Shown one piece after another: positions 1,951 through 47,646 of a stretch of 64,000 nucleotides of DNA. Each line of letters opens with the position of its first letter. The first letter of the stretch is position 1. The position numbers and the translations under genes were made by a program. Source of the DNA: Anaerolineaceae bacterium oral taxon 439 (GTDB taxonomy: Bacteria; Chloroflexota; Anaerolineae; Anaerolineales; Anaerolineaceae). Where the stretch lies: NCBI GenBank assembly GCA_001717545.1, contig CP017039.1, forward strand, positions 1,054,001 through 1,118,000. The letters are read 5' to 3'. The notes under the pieces are model-generated. The model did no database searches. It was given only the letters and a program-made list of their open reading frames with translations, and had not been told where the DNA came from.

Positions 1951-3141
1951 ATGCGACGGGGATTCAGGCTGAAACTGATTGGGCTGATGATCGCGGCGGG
2001 GGCGCTTGCCGCCGTTTTCGTGCGTTCTGTCTCCGCGGATCATCTTCGCAACGTCCGCCTGAATCGGATTCTTTACGTCGGCGTCGCCTCGGATTTTCCT
2101 CCTTTCGCGTCCGTTTCTCCTGAAGGCGCGATCGAGGGGATCGATATCGATCTGGTGGGGCGGATCGCCGCGGATATTGGCGTGGGGGGCGAGGTTGTCG
2201 ATATCGCGTTCGCAGGGCTCGTCGACTCGCTTCTCGCCGGGCAGGTTGACCTGATCGCCGGAGCGCTTCCGGTCGAGGACGGATTGAGCTCCGTTTTGGA
2301 TTACACGAACGTTTATTATCAGGGAAAATTCGGATTGCTGGGTCTCCCGGGCGGACTCGACGCGTCGGCGTTTACGGCGGACGATTTGGGATGGATCCGT
2401 CTCGGGGTTCAGCGCGGAACGGTTCAGGCGCAGTTCGCGCGGTCGTACTGGGTCGGGTCCGGACGGATTCCCCCGGCGCAGCTTCAGGTTTTTGATTCGC
2501 GCGATGAAGCGGTCGAAGCGCTGAACTGGGGCGAGATCGATTATTTCCTGACGACGGAGGAGGTTTATAAACGGCGCTACGAGCTCAGCGGCGCGTATAC
2601 CTGGATCACGGGCGATTTCGCGACCGTTCGCTTCGCGTTCGCCGCGCCGGAAGGATCGACGCTGGTCCCTGAGATCAATCGAATTCTAAGCGTCCTGAGC
2701 GCCGACGGCACGGCGCAGCAGTTCGCCAACGCGCGCATGAGCGAGGCATGGCCGGAAACGGCCGTAGATTTTTCGCGCGGGTCGCCGCTTTCGGACGTAC
2801 GGGCTGGCCGAAGCTGTACCTTCGCGGCGCGCTTTTCAGGCGACGAGACGCTCCCCGACGGCGAAACCGTCGAAAGCGGCGCGGCGCTGGAAAAGCGTTG
2901 GCGGGTGATGAATATCGGGAGCTGCGCCTGGGAGAGCGGGACCGCGCTCGTTCCGATTACCGACGCGGAGACGTTCCCGGTCGTGCCGTTCGCTGGTGTT
3001 CGTCCGGGCGAGGTCGTTACGATCGCGCTTCCGTTTACCGCCCCGACGGCGCATGGGCAATACCTGGCGCGGTTTCGCCTGAGCGCGCCGGACGGGTCTG
3101 ATTTTGGCCAGATACTGCGGCTGCGGCTGACGGTGCGCTGA
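1951..3141 (+). CDS. Secreted solute-binding protein (SBP_bac_3) fused to an NBR1-type Ig-like domain
   Basis: A 396-residue exported protein. Residues 1-30 form a signal peptide. Residues about 40-265 look like an amino-acid-type periplasmic binding protein (ILYVGVASDFPPF, GIDIDLVGRIAADI, GQVDLIAGALP). Residues about 286-396 match the NBR1-like Ig domain known from Chloroflexota, with the hallmark WRVMNIGSCAWESG and a FTAPTAHGQYLARFRL strand. The binding domain would capture a small ligand outside the cell. The Ig domain probably mediates adhesion or spacing from the surface. No permease or ATPase gene lies nearby, so a sensory or scavenging role is as likely as transport. The start has a strong ribosome site. 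Confidence 0.85.
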   Translation: MRRGFRLKLIGLMIAAGALAAVFVRSVSADHLRNVRLNRILYVGVASDFPPFASVSPEGAIEGIDIDLVGRIAADIGVGGEVVDIAFAGLVDSLLAGQVDLIAGALPVEDGLSSVLDYTNVYYQGKFGLLGLPGGLDASAFTADDLGWIRLGVQRGTVQAQFARSYWVGSGRIPPAQLQVFDSRDEAVEALNWGEIDYFLTTEEVYKRRYELSGAYTWITGDFATVRFAFAAPEGSTLVPEINRILSVLSADGTAQQFANARMSEAWPETAVDFSRGSPLSDVRAGRSCTFAARFSGDETLPDGETVESGAALEKRWRVMNIGSCAWESGTALVPITDAETFPVVPFAGVRPGEVVTIALPFTAPTAHGQYLARFRLSAPDGSDFGQILRLRLTVR

Positions 3142-3309: not shown

Positions 3310-3840
3310 ATGGAACAGTTGCATGAAGTCGTTGCGTCCGGCAAAGGTGGTTTTGAAAGCTTGATCGAGAAAATTCCCGGAATTAAGGGGTACAAAGCAA
3401 AAGAGGATCGCCGTTCGACGGATAAGCTCGTGCGCGAAACGGTTGCGGCCCGGCTGGAAGAGGAATGGGCTCGGATCTCGGCGCTCCAGCGTCAGCTTCT
3501 TAAAGCCGGCGCGCTCGGACCGATGGGCGATCTCGAATCTCCTGCGCTGAAAATCCGCCAGTTTATCGACCGGATCCGGACAGCCGCTTACGGTTACGCC
3601 GGGCTGATGGACGCGGTTAAGGTTGACGAAGCGGCGCTGAATCAGCTGTACGATTATGATTTATACTTGTTCAGCCTGGTCGACGAAGTCAGGAAACGTC
3701 TGGATACGATCGAGGCCGGGATCGGCGGACCCGAAACGGAGCTGAATCGGGCGATTCAGGAGCTGACGAAGGTTGCCGCCGAAATGGTAACTGCGTTCAA
3801 CCGCCGTTCGGAAGTCGTTCAGGGAACGGTCAATTCATAA
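3310..3840 (+). CDS. Coiled-coil protein of unknown function, partner of SPFH-HTH gene
   Basis: I do not recognise this 176-residue protein. It is charged, without signal peptide or membrane segment, and looks largely helical with heptad-like stretches (ARLEEEWARISALQRQLL, LDTIEAGIGGPETELNRAI). It starts after a GGAGAG ribosome site and ends 60 bases before the SPFH-HTH gene on the same strand, so the two are probably co-expressed. A structural or scaffold role alongside the SPFH protein is an inference from position only. Confidence 0.7.
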   Translation: MEQLHEVVASGKGGFESLIEKIPGIKGYKAKEDRRSTDKLVRETVAARLEEEWARISALQRQLLKAGALGPMGDLESPALKIRQFIDRIRTAAYGYAGLMDAVKVDEAALNQLYDYDLYLFSLVDEVRKRLDTIEAGIGGPETELNRAIQELTKVAAEMVTAFNRRSEVVQGTVNS

Positions 3841-3900: not shown

Positions 3901-4965
3901 ATGGCACGGATTTTTGATGTAGTTGAGTACGCGAACGAGATGCAGAACGTATTAGCGTACCATTTCCCGGAAAACGGGGTCGCCGATTTACGTTTTGGGT
4001 CGCAGGTTATCGTTCGCGAGTCGCAGAAAGCGGTTTTCTTCCGAGACGGGAAGGCGTTGGACGTACTCGGTCCAGGGCGGCATACGATTTCAGCGATGAA
4101 TTTTCCGCTCCTGACGGGGCTTCTCGGAACGGCGTTTAACGGACGCACTCCGTTTACCGCCGAGGTTTTCTACGTTTCGATGCGCGAGTTCGCGGATGTA
4201 AAATGGGGCACGTCGCAGCCGATTATCGTCCGTAACGCAGGCGTCGGACTCGGCGTCAGCCTTCTTCAGGGGTTTGGTACGTACAGCTTCCAGGTTGCCG
4301 ATCCGCAGCAGTTTATTACCCAGATCGTCGGTTCGCGGTCCGCGTATACGCTGGACGCGATCGAAGGGCGGCTGCGGACGATGCTGCTGTCGAAGATTCA
4401 GGACGTCTTAGGGACGCTCACGCAGACCAAAAATATTTTTGAATTGATCGGTCTCGTTGAGGAAATCGGGACGGCGGTCCGCGTCAGCGCGCAGGACGAT
4501 TTCGCCGCGATCGGGTTGACGCTTAAATCGTTTTATATCGGCAGCCTCAAACCTTCCGAAAAATCAGCGGAAGAGCTGCGCGCGATGGGAATGCTCGACA
4601 TGAGCGTGTATACGCAGCTCCAGGCGGCGGACGCGCTTCGCGAGGCGGCGAATAATCCGAGCGGCGGCGCGGGATTAACCGCGGGCCTGGGCGCGGGGAT
4701 GGGTCTGGGAAACCTGATGACGCAGACGTTCGCTCAGCCGCAGGCCGTTCAGCCGGCGCCCGCTCCGGCGGCTCCGGCGGCGTCGGCCGCTCCCTCCGCG
4801 CCGGGGATTAAAGCGGTCATGACGCCGGGAGAAGTCGCGCAGTTGTTGCAGGTCTCCGAAGAGGATATTATCGCTTCGATTAACGCCGGTGAGCTGAAAG
4901 CGCGGAAGATCGGGAGCGCATACCGGATCAGCGGCGATGCGGTCACTGAGTTTTTGAACGGATAA
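3901..4965 (+). CDS. SPFH (band 7)-domain protein with C-terminal excisionase-type HTH
   Basis: A 354-residue protein. Residues about 25-240 form an SPFH/virion-core-protein-like domain of the YdjI type (VIVRESQKAVFFRDGKALD, LGPGRHTIS, LLTGLLGTAFNG, VAEPQQF-like VADPQQFITQIVG). A Gly- and then Ala/Pro-rich linker spans about 250-300. Residues about 303-354 form a MerR/excisionase-family helix-turn-helix (MTPGEVAQLLQVSEEDIIAS, then ELKARKIGSAYRIS). SPFH proteins build large membrane-associated rings; here no membrane anchor is visible and the tail may bind DNA or act as a protein adaptor. The combination is unusual. The pairing with the upstream coiled-coil gene looks operonic. Confidence 0.82.
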   Translation: MARIFDVVEYANEMQNVLAYHFPENGVADLRFGSQVIVRESQKAVFFRDGKALDVLGPGRHTISAMNFPLLTGLLGTAFNGRTPFTAEVFYVSMREFADVKWGTSQPIIVRNAGVGLGVSLLQGFGTYSFQVADPQQFITQIVGSRSAYTLDAIEGRLRTMLLSKIQDVLGTLTQTKNIFELIGLVEEIGTAVRVSAQDDFAAIGLTLKSFYIGSLKPSEKSAEELRAMGMLDMSVYTQLQAADALREAANNPSGGAGLTAGLGAGMGLGNLMTQTFAQPQAVQPAPAPAAPAASAAPSAPGIKAVMTPGEVAQLLQVSEEDIIASINAGELKARKIGSAYRISGDAVTEFLNG

Positions 4966-5094: not shown

Positions 5095-6243
5095 TTGAAG
5101 TTACTCGAATATCAGGTTAAAAATCTTTTCCGAACGTACGGGATTCCCGTTCCGGTTGGAAAAGCGGCCTCGTCGGCGCGCGAGGTAAAGAATATCGCGG
5201 AGGAAATCGGAAAATCGGTTGTCGTCAAGGCGCAGATCCCCGTTTCGCAGCGCGGAGAGAAGGGCGGGATCCGCGTCGCCCGGACGCCGGTCGAGGCGGA
5301 AACGATCGCTTCGGAAATGATGACCGCGCGGATCGGGGGTTTCGTCGTCAATAAGGTTCAGGTCGATGAAGCGTTATCGATTCAGGATGAGTTTTCGGTC
5401 GTCCTGACGTTTGACCGGGCGACGCGGTTCCCGACGCTGCTGCTGTATACCGGGACGTCGATCAGTATCGAGAACGCCGCCAACGCGGTTTTCGAATCGA
5501 TGAGTAAAATTTCGATCGATCCGCTGATCGGGCTGCAGCGCTACCAGATTCGCGCTCTGGCGCGTCAGGCGGGGTTCCCCGACGCGCATCTCGCCGTTTT
5601 TATCAAGGTCTGTTTGCAGATGTGGTCGCTGTTTACCGATCTGGACGCGCGGTACGTCGCGTTCAGTCCGCTCGTTATCACCGAGACGCAGCGTGTCGTC
5701 GCGCTTGACGGAAAAATTGCGTTGGATCAGAACGCGGGCTTCCGCCAGACGTTCATCTTTGATCATTCGGACATGATCCGGCGGAGCGACCGGGAGCTCG
5801 AAGCGTATAAGCTTGGGTTTACTTATCTGGATTGCGACGGGAAAAACGCGATCGCCTGCATGGCGAACGGGGCGGGGCTGGCGCTGTCGACGATGGACAT
5901 GATCGCGGCGGCGGGCGGAACCGTCGGCGACGTCGTCGACCTTGGCGCGCGTTCCGTCACGGATCATTCCGATCGGGCGCTCTGGATCCTTCTTCGCAAT
6001 CCGAGCGTGACCGCGATTGTCGTCAATTTTTACGGGGGAATGGCTTCCTGCGACGATGTCGCCCGGCGGTTGCTCTCGGTTTGGGAAGAGGCGGACCGGC
6101 GCGTTCCGATTTTCGTCAATTTCGACGGCCGCGGGCGGATGGACGCGAATGGACTGCTTCAGGATTCTGGGATGATCGTCTGCTCCTCGATTGAAGACGC
6201 GGTCAGCTCGGCGGTCGCGCTGACGAAAGAGGAGGCGAAATGA
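5095..6243 (+). CDS. Succinyl-CoA synthetase beta-subunit-like ATP-grasp protein, divergent active site
   Basis: A 382-residue ATP-grasp protein colinear with SucC: LLEYQVKNLFRTYGIPVPVG at the start, VVKAQIPVSQRGEKGGI for VVK.Q...GRGKAGG, LDGKIALDQNAGFRQ (the Mg-binding Asp retained at residue 205) and MANGAGLALSTMD in the CoA-ligase domain. Differences are notable. The EINPL motif that carries Glu197 and Asn199 in E. coli reads AFSPL (Ala189, Ser191), and NIFGGI..CD reads NFYGGMASCD. It pairs with the SucD-like gene 57 bases downstream, which lacks the catalytic histidine. The start is a TTG at 5095, chosen because it begins at the conserved N terminus. A different acyl, carbamoyl or structural role is more likely than the citric-acid-cycle enzyme. 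Confidence 0.8.
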   Translation: MKLLEYQVKNLFRTYGIPVPVGKAASSAREVKNIAEEIGKSVVVKAQIPVSQRGEKGGIRVARTPVEAETIASEMMTARIGGFVVNKVQVDEALSIQDEFSVVLTFDRATRFPTLLLYTGTSISIENAANAVFESMSKISIDPLIGLQRYQIRALARQAGFPDAHLAVFIKVCLQMWSLFTDLDARYVAFSPLVITETQRVVALDGKIALDQNAGFRQTFIFDHSDMIRRSDRELEAYKLGFTYLDCDGKNAIACMANGAGLALSTMDMIAAAGGTVGDVVDLGARSVTDHSDRALWILLRNPSVTAIVVNFYGGMASCDDVARRLLSVWEEADRRVPIFVNFDGRGRMDANGLLQDSGMIVCSSIEDAVSSAVALTKEEAK

Positions 6244-6300
6244 ACCCTGGAAACAGGAATGGATTCGGGCGGGTTGCGGCTGCTGCCAAAAAGGGGGGCG

Positions 6301-7179
6301 ATGAGTATCCTGATCAATCGTGAGACGAGTATCATCGTTCAAGGTATTACCGGGCGCGCGGGCGAGTATTATTCGCGTCTGATGTATCGGTTCGGGATGA
6401 ATATTGTCGCGGGCGTATCGCCGAACGTCGGCGGCTCCTGGGTCTTAGACGGAAAGGTCCCGGTTTTCGATTCGGTCGCGAACGCGGTCGAGATTTTCCC
6501 GAACGTGAAAGCGGCGATCCTGTTCGTACCCGCGCCGCAGGCGTTGGACGCGCTTTACGAAGCGGCCGATGCCGGTTGTTTTTCCGTTGTTGTCTGCGTT
6601 ACGAAGGGAATCCCGCTTCATGACGTTTCGAAGGCCTGCCGCTATATGGATTCGAAAGGGATCCGGTTTATCGGCCCGAATAGTCCGGGGATTTATAATC
6701 CGGGAAACGCGCTGTTGGGCGTTTTCCCTGCGGATTGCGCGGTTCCCGGAAACGTCGGCGTGATTACGCGGTCGGGGACGTTGGGTTTCGCGGTTCTCGA
6801 AACGCTGAAGGCGGCGGGGATCGGCGTCAGTACCTGTATCGGGATCGGCGGCGATACGCTTCAGGGGACGACGATCGTCGACGCGCTGGCGCTGATGGAC
6901 GAAGACGTGTATACGAAGAAGATTGTCCTGATCGGCGGGGTCGGCGGGCTTGAGGAGGAGCGTGCGGCGTCTTACGCGATGTTCTCGATGGCGACGCCGG
7001 TCGTCGGCGTTCTCGCCGGACGGAATTTCCCGAAGAACCGCTCGTTCGGAACTTCGGGCGCGTTTATCGACGGCGATATCGGTTCGGTTGATAAGAAAGA
7101 ATTAACGTTTCAGCAGTTAGGTCTGCGCTGCGTTTCGAAGCTTCGCGATTTGCCCCGCGTTCTCGAAACGTATTCATGA
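6301..7179 (+). CDS. Succinyl-CoA synthetase alpha-subunit-like protein lacking the phosphohistidine
   Basis: A 292-residue protein aligned with SucD throughout: MSILINRETSIIVQGITGR, a CoA-binding Rossmann domain, GPNSPGIYNPG, RSGTLGFAV and CIGIGGDTLQGTTI. The catalytic motif MGHAGAI instead reads FGTSGAF, placing Thr251 where E. coli has His246. Glu208 of the IGEIGG motif is Gly213 here. The conserved Cys of GPNCPG is Ser. The phosphohistidine mechanism therefore cannot operate as known. FdrA proteins, SucD relatives in carbamoyl metabolism, also lack the histidine, so a related chemistry is possible; this is inference. The start at 6301 has a GGGGGG-type ribosome site and matches the family N terminus. 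Confidence 0.82.
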   Translation: MSILINRETSIIVQGITGRAGEYYSRLMYRFGMNIVAGVSPNVGGSWVLDGKVPVFDSVANAVEIFPNVKAAILFVPAPQALDALYEAADAGCFSVVVCVTKGIPLHDVSKACRYMDSKGIRFIGPNSPGIYNPGNALLGVFPADCAVPGNVGVITRSGTLGFAVLETLKAAGIGVSTCIGIGGDTLQGTTIVDALALMDEDVYTKKIVLIGGVGGLEEERAASYAMFSMATPVVGVLAGRNFPKNRSFGTSGAFIDGDIGSVDKKELTFQQLGLRCVSKLRDLPRVLETYS

Positions 7180-7267: not shown

Positions 7268-7498
7268 TTACATTTTGGACAGGATGTCGATTACGTCCTG
7301 GACCGATTTGATTTCTCTTGCCTGATCGTCGGTAATCGTGGCGTTGAAGGCTTCGGAAAAGCCGTCGATCAGGAAGAACTGATCCATGGAATCCGCTTTC
7401 AGGTCTTTAATGAATTCGGTTTCCGGCGTGATATTCGCTCCGTCGATTTTCAGGACGTCGACGACAACTTTTTTTACCTCTTCGAAAGACACATTCAT
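7268..7498 (-). CDS. Acyl carrier protein (stand-alone)
   Basis: A 76-residue acidic four-helix protein with the phosphopantetheine site at Ser37 in LKADSMDQ (the family usually has DSLD). It would carry acyl groups as thioesters on the 4'-phosphopantetheine arm. No fatty-acid or polyketide synthesis gene lies beside it, so its partner is unknown. A clean AGGAG site precedes the ATG at 7498. A second ACP lies at 33484-33735 in the acylation locus. Confidence 0.9.
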   Translation of the reverse strand: MNVSFEEVKKVVVDVLKIDGANITPETEFIKDLKADSMDQFFLIDGFSEAFNATITDDQAREIKSVQDVIDILSKM

Positions 7499-8857: not shown

Positions 8858-10072
8858 TTGGCTATTGATTTCAAGGCAATCCGCGCGAAAGCTGAAAGCT
8901 ACGCGGACGATATGACGAAGTTTATGTGCGATTTGATCGCGATCCCGGGTGAATCCTGCCAGGAGGGTCCAACGGTTCAACGAATCAAGCAGGAAATGGA
9001 AAAAGTCGGGTTTGATAAAGTCGAAATCGACCCGATGGGAAATATTTTTGGATGGATCGGACATGGCAGCCACCTGATCGCCATGGACGGGCATATCGAT
9101 AACGTCGGCGTTGGCGATATCAACAACTGGACGGTGACAGGGCCTTTCGAACCGAAAGTTATCGGCGACGAAATTTACGGCCGCGGCGGCTCGGATCAGG
9201 AAGGCGGTATGGTTTCCATGGTCTACGCCGGCAAGATCATTAAAGATCTGCATCTCGAGGACGATTATACGCTCCTCGTCGTCGGCTCCGTTCAGGAAGA
9301 AGACTGCGACGGTCTCTGCTGGCAGTATATTGTCAACGAAGATAAGATTCGTCCTGAATTCGTCCTGATTACCGAACCGACGTCGCTTCGGATTTACCGG
9401 GGTCATCGCGGCCGGATGGAAATTAAGGTGCGCACTCCCGGAATCAGCTGCCATGGGTCGGCGCCGGAACGCGGCGACAACGCGATTTACAAGATGGCCC
9501 CGATTATCAACGAAATCCGCGCGCTGAACGAAAATCTGCATTATGATCCGTTCCTGGGGAAGGGAACGGTTACGATTTCCGAAATTTTCTTTACGTCGCC
9601 GTCGCGCTGCGCCGTTGCGGACAGCTGCACCATTTCGCTGGACCGCCGCCTGACCGACGGGGAGACCTGGGAAAGCGCGCTCCAGGAAATCCGCAACCTG
9701 CCTTCCGTCAAGGAAGCGAAGGCTGAGGTTTCGATGTATACGTATGAACGTCCGTCGTACACGAACCTGACCTATCCGACCGAATGCTTCTTCCCGACCT
9801 GGGTTATCCCGGAAGATCATGTCGCGACGCAGACGCTCGCCAGCGCGTATGAGAATCTCTTCGATAAGAAACCTGTTATTGATAAATGGACCTTCTCGAC
9901 CAACGGCGTTTCGATCATGGGCCGCTACGGCATTCCGTGTATCGGGTTCGGCCCCGGCGCGGAGGATCAGGCGCATGCCCCGAACGAGAAGACCTGGACG
10001 AGTCATCTGGTTACCGCTGCCGCGATGTACGCTGCCGTTCCGGCGGTTTATTGCGGAAAGTTGAAGAAATAA
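8858..10072 (+). CDS. ygeY: YgeY family M20 metallohydrolase
   Basis: A 404-residue M20-family dinuclear zinc hydrolase. Metal and catalytic residues are visible at His79 and Asp81 (MDGHIDNV), Asp113 ([10 protein letters not shown]) and Glu147-Glu148 (SVQEEDCDG); [17 protein letters not shown] marks the dimerisation domain boundary. YgeY proteins occur in selenium-linked purine and ureide catabolism clusters with YgeW and are thought to act on N-acyl or carbamoylated amino acids; the exact substrate is not settled. The start is a TTG at 8858, with GGAGG six bases ahead. The ygeW gene follows after 33 bases in the same operon. Confidence 0.93.
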
Positions 10073-10105: not shown

Positions 10106-11299
10106 ATGGAAAAAACGAAAAATTTGATCAGCCTGCTCAAGGGCCTCGATACGTCGAAGATGTACAATGACGATTTCCTGCTGACCTGGGAAAAGAACGA
10201 CGAAGAAGTTCGCGCGACTTTCGCGGTCGCGGATATCCTTCGCGGCCTTCGCGAAGACAACGTTTCGACGCGGATCTTCGACTCCGGCCTGGCGATTTCG
10301 CTTTTCCGCGATAATTCGACGCGGACCCGCTTCAGCTTCGCCAGCGCAGCGAATCTCCTCGGCCTGGAGGTTCAGGATTTTGACGAAGGCAAATCGCAGG
10401 TCGCGCACGGCGAGACCGTTCGCGAAACCGCGAACATGATTTCCTTTATGGCGGACGTGGTCGGGATCCGCGACGACATGTACATCGGCAAGGGCAATGC
10501 CTACATGCGCGCGTTCAGCCAGTATGTCAAGGATGGAAATGAAGAAGGCGTTCTTGAACAGCGCCCGACGCTCGTCAACTTACAGTGCGACATCGATCAT
10601 CCGACCCAGTCCATGTCGGACGCGCTCCATATTATCAACCATTTCGGCGGCATCGATCAGCTTAAGGGCAAGAAGATCGCGATGACCTGGGCGTATTCCC
10701 CGTCCTATGGGAAACCGCTCTCGGTCCCGCAGGGGATTATCGGCCTGCTGACGCGGTTTGGAATGGACGTTACCCTGGCGCATCCGGAGGGTTACGAGGT
10801 CATGCCCGACGTTGAAGCGGTCGCGGAGAAGAACGCGAAAGCCAGCGGCGGTAAATTCTCGAAGACGCATTCGATGGCCGAGGCGTTCGCCGGCGCGGAT
10901 ATCGTTTATCCGAAGAGCTGGGCGCCGTTCGCGGCGATGGAAAAGCGGACGAAGCTGTACGGCGATGGCGATACCGACGGGATCAAGGCGCTGGAGAAGG
11001 TCCTTCTGGGTCAGAACGCCGAGCATAAGGATTGGGAATGCACGGAAGATCTGATGAAGACGACGAAAGACGGGAAAGCGCTGTATATGCACTGCTTACC
11101 GGCGGACATTACCGGCGTCAGCTGCAAAGCGGGCGAGGTCGAAGGTTCGGTCTTCGATCGCTATCGCGTTCCGCTCTATAAGGAAGCCAGCTATAAACCG
11201 TATATTATCGCGGCGATGATCTTCCTGAGCAAGGTTAAAGATCCGGCGGCGGTCCTGGAGGCCATGCGGACGAATAAGCCGCGTCGCTTCCTCGGATAA
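10106..11299 (+). CDS. ygeW: YgeW, knotted carbamoyltransferase
   Basis: A 397-residue carbamoyltransferase of the knotted YgeW type, related to acetylornithine and succinylornithine carbamoyltransferases. The carbamoyl-phosphate loop STRTR is at residues 71-75, DHPTQSMSDALHI carries the HPxQ motif, and YMHCLPAD carries HCLP. YgeW does not act on ornithine; its physiological substrate in ureide or purine breakdown is still debated. It is co-transcribed with ygeY and closed by a strong terminator. The usual partners (xanthine dehydrogenase subunits, selD, carbamate kinase) are not in this window. Confidence 0.94.
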   Translation: MEKTKNLISLLKGLDTSKMYNDDFLLTWEKNDEEVRATFAVADILRGLREDNVSTRIFDSGLAISLFRDNSTRTRFSFASAANLLGLEVQDFDEGKSQVAHGETVRETANMISFMADVVGIRDDMYIGKGNAYMRAFSQYVKDGNEEGVLEQRPTLVNLQCDIDHPTQSMSDALHIINHFGGIDQLKGKKIAMTWAYSPSYGKPLSVPQGIIGLLTRFGMDVTLAHPEGYEVMPDVEAVAEKNAKASGGKFSKTHSMAEAFAGADIVYPKSWAPFAAMEKRTKLYGDGDTDGIKALEKVLLGQNAEHKDWECTEDLMKTTKDGKALYMHCLPADITGVSCKAGEVEGSVFDRYRVPLYKEASYKPYIIAAMIFLSKVKDPAAVLEAMRTNKPRRFLG

Positions 11300-11351: not shown

Positions 11352-12389
11352 TTAATTCAGCTCCCCGTCTTTTCGGCTCAGCTTTTCTCCGGCGCGGAGT
11401 TTTCGCCGCGCCTCCTGCATCACATGATCGACTTTCCCCAACGCTTTCAGAAGTTCTTTTTCTTCTTCGCCGGTTTCGATAATTTTCGCGATCCCGCCGT
11501 TGCGGATCACGATTCGCCGGTCGGCCATCAGCGCGAGAAGAGGATCATGGGTCGCCATCAGGACGATTTTATCCTGCGCGACCAGGAGCTCGAGCGCTTT
11601 CCGGCGGTCGATCCCGGCGTTCTCGATCTCGTCGATCAGGACGATCGGCGATGAGCTCAGGATGGCCGTGTCGGCGATCATCAGCGCGCGCGACTGGCCG
11701 CCGCTGAGCCCGGTTACGGGGGTGGATTCGGAAAACGCTTCGCCGGCGAGCCGGTTCGCTTCGGCGAGAATTTTCGACTTGACGTCTTCGCGGTTCTCGA
11801 TCATCCGGCTTTCGGCGTGCATTTCGACGAATTCGCCCGCGCTGAGGTCCATGATGAAGTTCATGTTCTGCGACAGCTGCGCGACTAATTTATGCGTCGT
11901 TGAATAGCGCCATTTCGGATCCGGTTTTTCTCCGTTGATCAGGATCATCCGCCCGGTCGGCGTGTCGCGCTGCGCCGCCCATTCGATATCGGCGAGCAGG
12001 CGGCTCTTTCCGGATCCGGTCGGGCCGACGATCGAAACGATCTGGGACGGGTAAATATCGATCCTCCCGAAGGTTTCCGGCTGCCTGTTCTTGTCCCGCC
12101 CCGCGAGAATCGAAAGCGAGCCGACGGCGGCTTCGCGTTCGATTCCGAGGAACTCTTTCATCTGGTCGATGTATAAGCTGAGTTCTCCGGGGAGCGTTTC
12201 GATGCGGATTGCGCTGTCCTCGATTTCCTCATCGCTCAGGCGCGTTAAAAATTCCGGAAACGTGAGCGATTCGGAACCGCTGATTTTCAGGCGGTTCTGT
12301 TCGAAGAAATCCTGCGTAAACGGATATTTTTCTAAAATCCCGCCCAGCGTTAACGTCCGCGTCGTTTCCAGTTCTTCTTTTTTATTCAT
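11352..12389 (-). CDS. ABC-type ATPase with N-terminal DUF1858-like helix domain, no permease
   Basis: A 345-residue protein. Residues about 10-60 (LTLGGILEKYPFTQDFFEQN) resemble the DUF1858/ScdA-N small helical domain. Residues about 95-310 are an ABC nucleotide-binding domain with Walker A GPTGSGKS, signature LSGGQSRALMIAD, Walker B PIVLIDEIE and switch His in ATHDPLL. No membrane component is encoded nearby. It is the third gene of a trio with a HypB/UreG-like GTPase (17 bases away) and a solute-binding-type protein. The set looks like a cytoplasmic ATP/GTP-driven assembly or metal-delivery machine rather than a transporter, but the function is unknown to me. Confidence 0.8.
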   Translation of the reverse strand: MNKKEELETTRTLTLGGILEKYPFTQDFFEQNRLKISGSESLTFPEFLTRLSDEEIEDSAIRIETLPGELSLYIDQMKEFLGIEREAAVGSLSILAGRDKNRQPETFGRIDIYPSQIVSIVGPTGSGKSRLLADIEWAAQRDTPTGRMILINGEKPDPKWRYSTTHKLVAQLSQNMNFIMDLSAGEFVEMHAESRMIENREDVKSKILAEANRLAGEAFSESTPVTGLSGGQSRALMIADTAILSSSPIVLIDEIENAGIDRRKALELLVAQDKIVLMATHDPLLALMADRRIVIRNGGIAKIIETGEEEKELLKALGKVDHVMQEARRKLRAGEKLSRKDGELN

Positions 12390-12406
12390 GCCGCTTTCCG
12401 TTTCTT

Positions 12407-13099
12407 TTATTCGTCCCAGTTCATTTTCTTAGCGTTGCCAAGCTGATACGATTCGCCGATCCGCGTCTCCCCGAGGCAGTACGAGCACATCGCCGCCGGC
12501 ATCGGAAAGCGCAGCTTCATCCCCTGAACGCTTTCGATATCGACGTCGTCGCGGTAGATCAGCGTGCTGAGCTCGTAGGCGCCCTGTCCGCTGAGTCCGT
12601 TGACATGGATAACGATCGCGCGCGGGTTGACGGCGCTGACGCGCGACGCGAAGACTTCGCGTTCGGCCTGCGAAACGATATCGCCTTTGGTGATGACGAC
12701 GACGTCCGCGGCTTTCAGCATCGGGCCGATCTTTTTCGGCGTGTTGATCCCGGAGAGATTATCGATCACGCAGACGCCTTTAACGTCGGCGAGATAGGGG
12801 GAACAGCGGTTACACAGACCGGCGGATTCGCTGACGAGGAGGTCGAGCTCCTCGCGCCGGCCCCACCTGACGACGCCTTCGATATTCGAGGCGAAAAAAT
12901 GATCTGGGCAGAGACCGCCGGACAACCCTTTTTTTACCGGGACGCCGGCCTTTTCGTAGAGCGTGTCGTCGTCGGTATACAGGCAGTCGAACTTGACGAC
13001 GCCGACTTTCAGCCCGCGATCCCGAAACGAATCGATCGTTTTCAGGATGACCGAGGTTTTCCCTGACGACGGGGGACCGGAAAAAATCGTTAAATTCAT
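12407..13099 (-). CDS. G3E-type GTPase (HypB/UreG/CobW-like) with CxxC motifs
   Basis: A 230-residue P-loop GTPase: Walker A GPPSSGKTS at residues 8-16, VVKFDCLYTDD, a LLVSESAGLC segment like the ENxGNLVCP motif of HypB, and TKGD as the base-recognition motif (NKxD variant). Cysteine pairs at CNRC and CSYC could bind metal. G3E GTPases insert nickel, cobalt or other cofactors into enzymes. The gene overlaps the upstream binding-protein gene by four bases, so translation is coupled. The client enzyme is not evident from the window. Confidence 0.82.
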   Translation of the reverse strand: MNLTIFSGPPSSGKTSVILKTIDSFRDRGLKVGVVKFDCLYTDDDTLYEKAGVPVKKGLSGGLCPDHFFASNIEGVVRWGRREELDLLVSESAGLCNRCSPYLADVKGVCVIDNLSGINTPKKIGPMLKAADVVVITKGDIVSQAEREVFASRVSAVNPRAIVIHVNGLSGQGAYELSTLIYRDDVDIESVQGMKLRFPMPAAMCSYCLGETRIGESYQLGNAKKMNWDE

Positions 13100-14352
13100 C
13101 GCCGCGCTCCGATTTTCAGGATGGTCCGGTTGGATTGGTTGAAGAAGGCCGCTTCAGCGTCGCGGAGAAGTTTCCCGACGTCTTCGTGATGAATAACGTC
13201 CCAGCCGATCCAGACGAACTTCTGGTCCGACGTGAGACGGTTATCGAGCGCGGGGTTCGTCGAAGGGAATTTTCCGTCGACGTAAATCGTCTCGGCGACG
13301 TCTTTCGAGTAGAGGAAGTCGACGACAGGCTTGATCCGTTCGCGGACCGACGCCTTGGTGATCAGGAAAATCGGGCTGACGATCGCGCCTTCCTCCGGCC
13401 AGACGGTTTTCAGCGGTCCGCTTTCTTTGGCCATCTGTGCGAAGAACCAGGGGGCGATACTGACCGCCGGCTGCGTTCCCTGAGCCGATTTCGCCCCTTT
13501 GACCATCTGCGCCGGGTGCATCCCTTCCAGCAGGTTCTCGCCGAGTTTCCGGATCCCGTCAAACCCGAACAGCTTGTACCATCCGAGCATCAGCGCGTTG
13601 AACATGTCGAGGTCCCTGACCGGGAGCGAGATACTGTTCCTGAATTCGGGCGCGAGGAGGTCTTCCCAGCGGGACGGCATGGGCCGGTCGCCGAGAACGG
13701 CGGTATTGACGACCATGACGGCGGGAACGACGCCGATAATCGAATAGCGTTTCAGCGGATCGCGCAGGTCGATCGATGCGTTTTCGAAATCCGGGTTGAT
13801 ATGTTCCCAGCCGGATTGGTCGGCGAACACGCCCTGTTCCATGTACTTTCCGATCAGGTCCTTATCGAAGAACAGGTTAAATCCGGCGGATATGTAAATA
13901 TCCGCGAGGTCGTCCGCGCTCCGGCTTTTCCGGACCTTTTCGATGATAGGGTCGAGGCCTAAGCTGGCCGATTGCAGGTCCATATTGATATCGATTTTTT
14001 CATCTTCGATAAGTTTCTCGATTTTTTCCAGGAGCTGAAGCTTAACCGGGCAGGGAAGGACGCCTTCGATCGACATCTGAGCCGTGTCGCTGTGCAGCTC
14101 AGCTTTGACAAGGCCGTCGGATAAACTCAGTTCACCGCCGTCCAGGATTTCAGCGGCTTCGGCTTCGAAAAGCGCGATATCGATTTTTCTCATTTTAAGC
14201 GCCTGATCGAGCGAAATTGCCTTCCCGAGCGTCTTCCGCATCGTTTCGTTACGGAGATTGTCGAAGCCTTTGGAGATCAGCAGATCGAGTACCTGCGGAT
14301 ATCGTTCAGTGATATCGTATACCTTTTCGCTCAGTTCAAAATATCGGTTCAT
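13096..14352 (-). CDS. DUF1858 domain fused to extracellular-type solute-binding fold, apparently cytoplasmic
   Basis: A 418-residue protein. Residues about 5-60 (YDITERYPQVLDLLISKGFD, followed by MRKTLGKAISLDQALKMRKID) form a DUF1858 domain. Residues about 100-400 resemble an iron/thiamine-type periplasmic binding protein (YSIIGVVPAVMVVNTAVLG, WEDLLAPEFRNSISLP, KSAQGTQPAVSIAPWFFAQ, VDFLYSKDVAETIYVDGKFP). There is no signal peptide or lipobox, so it should stay in the cytoplasm. Together with the GTPase and ABC ATPase downstream it suggests an intracellular ligand-handling complex. An AGAGGA ribosome site precedes the ATG. Confidence 0.8.
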   Translation of the reverse strand: MNRYFELSEKVYDITERYPQVLDLLISKGFDNLRNETMRKTLGKAISLDQALKMRKIDIALFEAEAAEILDGGELSLSDGLVKAELHSDTAQMSIEGVLPCPVKLQLLEKIEKLIEDEKIDINMDLQSASLGLDPIIEKVRKSRSADDLADIYISAGFNLFFDKDLIGKYMEQGVFADQSGWEHINPDFENASIDLRDPLKRYSIIGVVPAVMVVNTAVLGDRPMPSRWEDLLAPEFRNSISLPVRDLDMFNALMLGWYKLFGFDGIRKLGENLLEGMHPAQMVKGAKSAQGTQPAVSIAPWFFAQMAKESGPLKTVWPEEGAIVSPIFLITKASVRERIKPVVDFLYSKDVAETIYVDGKFPSTNPALDNRLTSDQKFVWIGWDVIHHEDVGKLLRDAEAAFFNQSNRTILKIGARR

Positions 14353-46509: not shown

Positions 46510-47646
46510 TTAATAAAGCGCCTCTTTCAACACGATCAGGTTCTTTTTCATTAAATCATAGTAGGTGACGCCGGATTCAAAATCCTGTTTTGAAACGTTA
46601 TGTGCGGAATGAATTTCGCGCGTCTTCGCGCCTGTCGCTTCGGCGATTGCGTTGGCGATTTTCTGATTCGAGAATTCGATGTAGAAGACGATCGGAATCT
46701 GATGCTCCTTGACTTCGTCGATCAGGAACGCGATCGTTCCGGCACTGGCTTCCGTATCGGTCGAGCAGCCGGTAAAAGCGGCGAAGTAATTCAGCCCGTA
46801 CGCGTCGGCAAGGTACCTGAGTGGGAAGCGGTCGCCGACGATGATCGTTTTCCGGACGGCGCCGGCGACGAGGTCCTTGTACTCTTTATCGAGGTCGGCT
46901 AATTTCGCGGCGTAAGCTCCCGCGTTGGCGGCGTAGACGTCCGCGTTCGCGGGATCGAGCTCGCTGAGGGTTTTGCCCAGCTTGTTGACGATAATCATCG
47001 CGTTTCTGGGAGACGTCCAGACGTGTTCGTCGAGCTCGATTTCATGGTCATGGTCATGGTCGTCATGGGTATCGTGGTCGTGGTCGTCATGCCTATCGTG
47101 GTCGTGGTCGTCATGGGTATCGTGGTCGTGGTCGTCATGCCTATCGTGGTCGTCATGGTCGTCATGTGCGTCGTGGTCACGGTCGTCGTGCACGTCATGG
47201 TCGTCATGGTCGTCGTGGTCATGGTCGTCGTGCGCGTCGTGGTCGTCATGGTCATGGTCGTGTTCCATGCCCTCGACGATCTCTTCCGGAACCGCGTCGA
47301 CCATCTCGATCATGCGGACCGTTTTCGGGGCGGATTCGCCGAACGATTCGAGGATCCGTTCAACCCATTCTTCGTTTTCACCGCCGGTCGCTACGAAAAG
47401 CCCGGCCTGCTGGATTTCGATCATGTCCTTCGGCGTAGGCTCGAACGAATGGCTTTCGGCGCCCGGAGGAAGGAGCATTTTAACCTGGACCAGGTCGCCG
47501 CCGACGGCGCGGACGAAATCGTAACCGGGAAAGTTCGTCGTTACGACTTTAATCGGGTCCGCGGCGAGCGCAGCCGAGGCGAAGGCCAGCGCCGCAGCCA
47601 GCGCGAGAAAAACAATCGTGAATTTTTTGCTGTCTTTATTAAACAT
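46510..47646 (-). CDS. znuA: ZnuA zinc-binding protein with giant His/Asp loop
   Basis: A 378-residue exported cluster A-I binding protein (signal peptide ending SAALAAD). Metal ligands lie at the His of GAESHSFEP, at DEHVWTSPRNAM, and at the C-terminal part (IVGDRFPLRYLADAYGL keeps the family pattern, with Arg where a His is common). Between about residues 129 and 201 an acidic loop contains roughly 27 His among 73 residues, made of repeated HDxHDDHD units. Such loops act as zinc traps or sensors in ZnuA. The DNA is a run of 24-base repeats (47044-47262). It passes zinc to ZnuBC. Confidence 0.94.
   Translation of the reverse strand: MFNKDSKKFTIVFLALAAALAFASAALAADPIKVVTTNFPGYDFVRAVGGDLVQVKMLLPPGAESHSFEPTPKDMIEIQQAGLFVATGGENEEWVERILESFGESAPKTVRMIEMVDAVPEEIVEGMEHDHDHDDHDAHDDHDHDDHDDHDVHDDRDHDAHDDHDDHDRHDDHDHDTHDDHDHDRHDDHDHDTHDDHDHDHEIELDEHVWTSPRNAMIIVNKLGKTLSELDPANADVYAANAGAYAAKLADLDKEYKDLVAGAVRKTIIVGDRFPLRYLADAYGLNYFAAFTGCSTDTEASAGTIAFLIDEVKEHQIPIVFYIEFSNQKIANAIAEATGAKTREIHSAHNVSKQDFESGVTYYDLMKKNLIVLKEALY
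47044..47262. repeat. 24-base tandem repeat array inside znuA
   Basis: On the plus strand the unit reads GTCGTCATGGGTATCGTGG plus TCGTG, with an alternating variant having CCTATC for GGTATC. Several copies are exact neighbours in 47062-47150 and degrade beyond. The repeat encodes His/Asp octets, so unit number could change by slippage without frameshift. Confidence 0.85.

Follow-up and report, generated by a model that had tools for sequence, protein, structure and literature searches.

A SucCD pair without its phosphohistidine relay

The window analysed here, a stretch of 64,000 nucleotides (bases 1054001-1118000) of the single-contig 2.945-Mb genome of Anaerolineaceae bacterium oral taxon 439 (99.89% complete; G000 in our comparisons), carries two adjacent genes that resemble sucC and sucD, which encode the beta and alpha subunits of succinyl-CoA synthetase (SCS). 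On balance, we lean towards the reading that this pair is a pseudoenzyme, whose SucCD scaffold would have been kept for a phosphohistidine-independent role after a stepwise loss of the catalytic relay. Homology is the usual basis for annotating SCS, a textbook enzyme, and here such annotation would mislead: the pair very likely cannot run the SCS reaction, so metabolic models built on its annotation would be wrong.

PMC10342173 describes His246 of the alpha subunit as phosphorylated during catalysis, and Glu208 of alpha and Glu197 of beta as stabilising the phosphohistidine. All three residues are replaced in the window. The sucC-like gene (5095..6243, + strand, TTG start) encodes a beta subunit of 382 aa with ATP-grasp and CoA-ligase domains, in which Glu197 is Ala, Asn199 is Ser and Gly53 is Gln, and the sucD-like gene (6301..7179, + strand) encodes an alpha subunit of 292 aa in which His246 is Thr and Glu208 is Gly. 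The open frame of the latter reaches up to 6259, where an earlier in-frame ATG lies, but its start is likely the ATG at 6301, which has GGGGGG directly upstream; with this start, the residue numbers given in the original prediction, which was made from the letters of the window, are exact (alpha Gly213 and Thr251, beta Ala189). When the proteins are aligned with solved SCS chains, the E. coli motif IGEIGG at alpha-Glu208 reads IGGVGG in the window, GHAGA at alpha-His246 reads GTSGA, and IEINPL at beta-Glu197 reads VAFSPL, and a family alignment to which E. coli was added gives the same placement of all three positions. The three relay replacements reported at the outset are therefore real. The changes at beta-Asn199 and beta-Gly53, the latter within an ATP-grasp loop that reads QRGE instead of GRGK, had not been noticed. 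Asn199, which we take to be a Mg ligand in SCS, presumably forms the Mg-nucleotide site of beta together with Asp213; in the window this site retains Asp213 and has Ser at 199 and Gln at 53. The QGITG motif is still present in the pair. By the known SCS mechanism the pair is very likely catalytically dead, in that the transfer of phosphate from succinyl-CoA to ADP would, judging from these residues, no longer be possible.

Pfam and NCBIfam name the two proteins SucC and SucD, with scores of 300.5 and 283.5 bits that fall below the NCBIfam cut-offs of 370 and 353.2. The pair shares with the SCS of E. coli and Thermus both subunits, their domain order, their fold and the adjacency of their genes, and solved SCS alpha chains among the matches listed are 34-42% identical to the window alpha model; it differs from SCS in lacking the active-site His, Glu208-alpha, Glu197-beta and Asn199-beta and in scoring under those cut-offs. 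Citryl-CoA synthetase and ATP-citrate lyase, which retain the phosphohistidine, are the next matches below SCS, with lower scores. The window pair provides the only SucC of its genome by PF08442 (a single match over the cut-off) and therefore, by that test, the genome has no canonical SCS. The genome also encodes a 704-aa protein resembling NDP-forming acyl-CoA synthetases (ACD), with an SHTGSLAG motif that, from general knowledge, we take to be an ACD-type signature. ACD proteins and the pseudo-domain of Pat acetyltransferases share a superfamily with the window pair, which differs from ACD in that alpha and beta are, as in SucCD, encoded by separate genes; in the Pat acetyltransferases, an ACD-like domain without the His acts as a sensor, which is a precedent for such a fate. 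A search of the open-access literature turned up no account of SucCD orthologues lacking the phosphohistidine among the titles and abstract openings listed.

An in-place orthologue that lost its relay in steps

Clustering of neighbouring open frames, a family-wide search for c3 and the coordinates of the genes together define a run conserved in the family, consisting of c2 (about 175 aa), c3, sucC and sucD. In the window, c2 (3310..3840, + strand) is the first gene of this run and encodes a helical protein of 176 aa with no Pfam match over the cut-off, and c3 (3901..4965, + strand) encodes an SPFH/Band_7_1 protein with a C-terminal HTH_17 domain and no PDB sequence match up to an E-value of 0.1. 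Among the 104 family genomes having both genes, c3 lies at most 4 kb upstream of sucD and on the same strand in 100; one of the four exceptions truly separates the two (G013), and the other three have them on different contigs. Judged by sequence and position, the window pair is directly orthologous to canonical SCS and has stayed in place. Most of the family has homologues in this context that keep alpha-His246, alpha-Glu208 and beta-Glu197, a finding which the original prediction had named as evidence that would speak against it.

Of 13 other genomes from the window's genus that we examined, G092 has a cut sucC and G112 gave no match; in the remaining 11 the active site can be read in both genes. 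The sucD of G084 and that of G104 appear split, probably through gaps in the assembly or ambiguous bases and not because the gene is a pseudogene. Six of the 11 relatives (G017, G121, G104, G084, G065 and G049) share the window order c12-c2-c3-sucC-sucD-ACP-c14, where ACP stands for an acyl carrier protein gene, and five (G108, G116, G120, G076 and G098) keep c2-c3-sucC-sucD with differing flanks. Every one of the 11 readable relatives carries beta-Ala197, and each does so beside an intact alpha-His246, alpha-Glu208 and beta-Asn199, from which it follows that the relay was lost stepwise. On this sequence comparison, the loss of beta-Glu197 is ancestral to the genus and the remaining losses are private to the window lineage as far as sampled; beta Gly53->Gln and Asn199->Ser were not found in the genus relatives compared. 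The order of events would then be a loss of beta-Glu197 in the ancestor of the genus, followed on the branch of the window by losses of alpha-Glu208, alpha-His246 and beta-Asn199. The co-ordinated loss at all three sites that had been proposed is thus not borne out. The E. coli chain in PDB 1jll carries in its beta sequence the same Glu197->Ala change as the genus; we take this chain to be an engineered E197-beta mutant.

Relay loss recurs in four genera

A SucD match was detected in 107 of 121 family genomes, and the family alignment comprised 109 alpha and 107 beta rows, with alpha sequences shorter than 240 aa and beta sequences shorter than 340 aa left out. At alpha-208 the rows read Glu in 100 cases, Gly in 4, Gln in 2 and Lys in 2, with one unreadable, and the His column reads His in 103, Arg in 2, Thr in 1 and Phe in 1, with gaps in G046 and in G084, which has an assembly gap. 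The beta-197 column holds 95 Glu and 12 Ala, and all of the Ala rows belong to the window's genus. Relay-broken members are also found among the 103 His rows, namely G083c1 and G103c2 (Gln at 208 and a GHTEI loop), G015 (Gly at 208) and G013, which has Lys at 208 and a His aligned in a region about 15 residues shorter. Overall, relay-broken pairs occur in four genera, g1 (the window's own genome), g14 (G013, and G046 without the His), g16 (several genomes) and g17 (G075 and G064), and in all four they are open frames of near full length. In g17, G075 has Phe at the His column and a beta subunit without Asp213, and the alpha of G064, cut by a contig end, has Asn in place of the His and is paired with a beta subunit that likewise lacks Asp213. 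No two genera share a replacement at the His: it is Thr in the window, Arg or Lys in g16, Phe in G075, Asn in the cut G064 and absent in G046. In G074 of g16 the residue is Arg in multiple alignments (a pairwise alignment gave Ser). In two g16 genomes, G083 and G103, the copy that belongs to the SPFH run is degenerate, and a second pair, which is canonical, is encoded at another site that lacks c2 and c3.

These cases could in principle descend from a single ancient His-less paralogue common to all lineages, and a quick FastTree did group the degenerate pairs together (support 0.94/0.55/0.83). A mixture-model tree of 37 of the 106 concatenated rows, with the active-site columns kept in the alignment, instead groups each degenerate pair with its own genus, and approximately unbiased (AU) tests rejected a single clade of all 9 degenerate pairs (p-AU 1.8e-5) and of the 8 without the window pair (p-AU 0.0018). 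Joining g16 with G075, a grouping suggested by FastTree and not named beforehand, was also rejected (p-AU 0.010). The mixture-model tree and the AU tests thus reject the common paralogue and support an independent origin of relay loss in four genera. The fewest changes needed for relay loss on the tree is four; long branches meet inside g16, where one or two events both fit. We also considered the presence of citrate synthase as a correlate of loss; G000, G013, G046, G064 and G075 match, but the relay-broken g16 genomes of the sample are not among the matches and the candidate was rejected.

Relay-broken pairs can be kept by selection

To follow relay-broken pairs within one genus, we searched 29 g16 genomes with the alpha of G074 as query and sorted them by their active-site reading. 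Eight have Glu208->Gly together with a rebuilt His loop, in which the His is replaced by Arg in six and by Lys in G332 and is still His in G015; two have the Gln/GHTEI form and seven are canonical. All eight of the first group are full length (alpha 288 aa, beta 379-381 aa). Between them, the proportion of synonymous differences (pS) is 0.62-0.84, near saturation, and that of nonsynonymous differences (pN) 0.08-0.28. The dN/dS ratio (omega) is 0.03-0.12 where dS is finite, compared with 0.025-0.042 for three canonical g16 pairs; many comparisons are saturated without a finite dS, which makes these omegas rough, but pS exceeds pN by a wide margin in every comparison. When G074 is compared with G097, both of which have Arg at the His, the two omegas are 0.068 and 0.044. 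Collectively, these data indicate that selection can maintain a relay-broken SucCD over a long time and that the g16 pairs are old, probable pseudoenzymes under strong purifying selection. Proteins of 526-546 aa that are weakly SucD-like were also seen in g16 genomes, several of them without SucD; their length would fit FdrA-type proteins.

The window copy has evolved fast. Its three-point branch lengths are 0.191 for valS, 0.311 for c2, 0.191 for c3, 0.591 for sucC and 0.516 for sucD, and those of its two sister groups are 0.149/0.173, 0.248/0.298, 0.135/0.157, 0.286/0.407 and 0.185/0.279 in the same order. Scaled by valS, the sucD branch is 1.9x and the sucC branch 1.4x longer than expected (0.275 and 0.411, respectively), and c2 and c3 are not accelerated. 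The excess in the window sucCD amounts to about 139 replacements, yet the pair contains no stop codon where about 5-6 would be expected were the excess neutral (ratio 0.032-0.044); by a rough Poisson count, this absence has a probability of about 0.002-0.008. The GC content at third codon positions (GC3) of the pair is gene-like.

The replacements in the alpha subunit are concentrated. We defined conserved columns as those at least 97% conserved in canonical family members, a set without any row of the window's genus, the degenerate rows, every row containing X and the divergent second copy of G006. The window alpha keeps 59 of 72 such columns (genus relatives, 61-68), and 10 of its 13 changes fall in segments 152-160, 209-210 and 244-248 of the E. 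coli open frame. Alpha-Lys42, Glu97 and Cys123, considered as shared losses, are not among the conserved columns and were set aside. An AlphaFold model of alpha has a mean predicted local distance difference test score (pLDDT) of 84.8, its nearest PDB fold is the E. coli SCS alpha (TM-score 0.91), and its single stretch below 50 covers residues 244-260, the old His loop.

A possible role at the SPFH locus and competing explanations

If the subunits still fold, as they appear to, and the genes have been retained beside a long-time SPFH neighbour, then the most plausible retained role would be that of a partner which serves the SPFH module in binding or sensing, as gene order suggests. More broadly, and only tentatively, we propose that SucCD of this family has a second, phosphohistidine-independent job in an SPFH module (c2-c3-sucC-sucD, often with an ACP gene), which may have held the gene order and outlived enzyme activity in four genera, leaving pseudoenzymes that may report the state of CoA or of acyl carriers to the membrane. 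The ACP gene of the window (7268..7498, - strand; 76 aa, PP-binding, with DLKADSMDQFFLIDG (DSMDQFFLIDG)) is convergent to sucD, and an ACP gene match was found in 37 of the 49 family loci scanned and in 6 of 11 genus relatives. An ACP match also adjoins sucD in G013, whose SPFH gene lies at another site. The adjacency of c3 and sucCD is present in the 4 genomes of the window's family within a phylum sample of 201 genomes. If this reading is true, repeated loss of the His from genes that stay under selection would be a natural experiment in which catalysis by SucCD is uncoupled from a non-catalytic role, with the SPFH protein as the partner it points to.

Several observations weigh against a retained role and against the SPFH partnership. 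The window's Thr at His246 was not found in any of the 11 readable genus relatives, so for this copy purifying selection after the loss is only a possibility. Its beta subunit keeps 42 of 68 conserved columns, compared with 51-56 in genus relatives, with changes more widely spread than in alpha, and the AlphaFold model of beta has a pLDDT of 83.9 and a predicted TM-score of 0.55; the floppy His loop of alpha, modelled as a single chain without beta and without a canonical control, may be partly an artefact. In g16, no SucD was found in 12 of the 29 genomes, several of which are incomplete: five lack any match and seven match only through proteins of 526-1022 aa (E-values of 4e-15 to 5e-11). 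Three g16 genomes (G047, G111 and G119) keep c2-c3 and the ACP at the locus with sucCD gone, which implies that the SPFH genes can do without the pair and that it is dispensable there. Furthermore, the relay-broken pair of G013 lies outside the c2-c3 run, the ACP match is missing from 5 of the 11 genus loci, and none of the 12 genomes sampled from the next family of the order has c3 adjacent to sucCD (4 carry them at distant sites of one contig and 8 on separate contigs). A partnership of SucCD with SPFH is therefore suggested by gene order and weakened by the genomes that have c2-c3 without sucCD and by G013, and a non-catalytic job of the window pair is supported, not proven, by its sister cases and its absence of stops. 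Of the earlier claim that the pair is not decaying, the part that stands comes mostly from relatives, in the open, near-full-length pairs of four genera and the low omegas of g16; the window copy itself may be in decay.

The chief competing explanation, possible but less probable than a pseudoenzyme with a retained role, is a recent relaxation, in which the genus lost its usual sources of succinyl-CoA and the window pair, though intact-looking, is heading for loss without any new role. Methylmalonyl-CoA mutase (PF01642) was detected in none of 13 sampled genus genomes, the window's included, compared with 101 of 108 other family genomes, and the 2-oxoacid oxidoreductase alpha subunit TIGR03710 passes its cut-off in one of the 13 (G092). 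With little succinyl-CoA made, the genus may not need SCS catalysis, although weaker TIGR03710 matches in every genome mean that it may have another 2-oxoglutarate oxidoreductase. Relaxation would also account for sucC and sucD being the sole accelerated genes of the run, for the 26 of 68 conserved beta columns lost in the window copy and for the clean deletions of the pair in g16. On the other hand, the pair has gathered its excess replacements without a stop or frameshift and with gene-like GC3, and ten genus relatives in the mutase sample lack the mutase yet keep the His and Glu208. Relay-broken genomes of the other genera do have mutase matches, from which it follows that mutase loss is no general cause of relay loss; it may explain the window's genus but not the others. 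The low omegas of g16 also speak against relaxation.

The original prediction favoured selection for a different chemistry. On such a reading the pair would use ATP and CoA without a phosphohistidine, for example for carbamoyl or acyl transfer in the manner of FdrA, a subunit of oxamic transcarbamylase (OXTCase). We consider this improbable. FdrA (AllF) is also SucD-related, and PMC8550087 states that SCS activity was not detected for it, so that a SucD relative can serve another reaction; the QGITG motif and beta-Asp213 remain in the window, and strong profile matches to YgeY, a selenium-metabolism-linked hydrolase (8858-10072), and YgeW, a knotted carbamoyltransferase (10106-11299), lie 1.7 and 2.9 kb downstream of the pair. 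Nonetheless, the window alpha scores 31.4 bits against the FdrA profile (cut-off 433) and 283.5 against that of SucD, and FdrA is one longer chain, with a profile of 555 positions, whereas the window has a separate SucC and SucD. According to PMC11326118, FdrA is encoded together with YlbE and YlbF, not with a SucC. The genes ygeY and ygeW come after c14, with the convergent ACP gene in between, and have no match at the 11 genus loci around sucCD, 9 of which (all but G121 and G065) extend 4.9 kb or more beyond sucD, so the proposed link to carbamoyl metabolism is not supported. We found no evidence of selection for another chemistry: the ATP-grasp site of the window copy is eroding too, through changes at Gly53 and Asn199 that the genus relatives compared lack, and the replacement at the His differs between genera.

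Less probable still is a working SCS that relies on a substitute residue or an atypical loop. Members of the genus keep the His and Glu208 beside beta-Ala197, the change also seen in the 1jll chain, and may therefore get by with a reduced relay, but the window has lost the very residue that PMC10342173 gives as phosphorylated in catalysis. Asn199 is lost as well. We know of no mechanism by which Thr replaces the phosphorylated His. An error of sequencing or assembly is the least credible of the explanations considered; the Thr comes from a single genome and recurs in none of its readable relatives, but that genome is a nearly complete single contig, the two frames, both intact, carry many codon changes and are about 50% identical to relatives, and comparable losses are seen in other genomes.

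Other features of the window

Immediately upstream of the run, in the window as in several genus relatives, c12 (1951-3141) fuses a solute-binding domain (SBP_bac_3) to an NBR1-type Ig-like domain. Further downstream, 11352-14352 on the - strand holds in series an ABC ATPase, a HypB-like GTPase and a DUF1858-SBP_bac_6 fusion, and a binding protein fused to DUF1858 is unusual. At 46510-47646, also on the - strand, an open frame that by eye resembles a metal-binding ABC substrate-binding protein contains a long His/Asp-rich repeat stretch.

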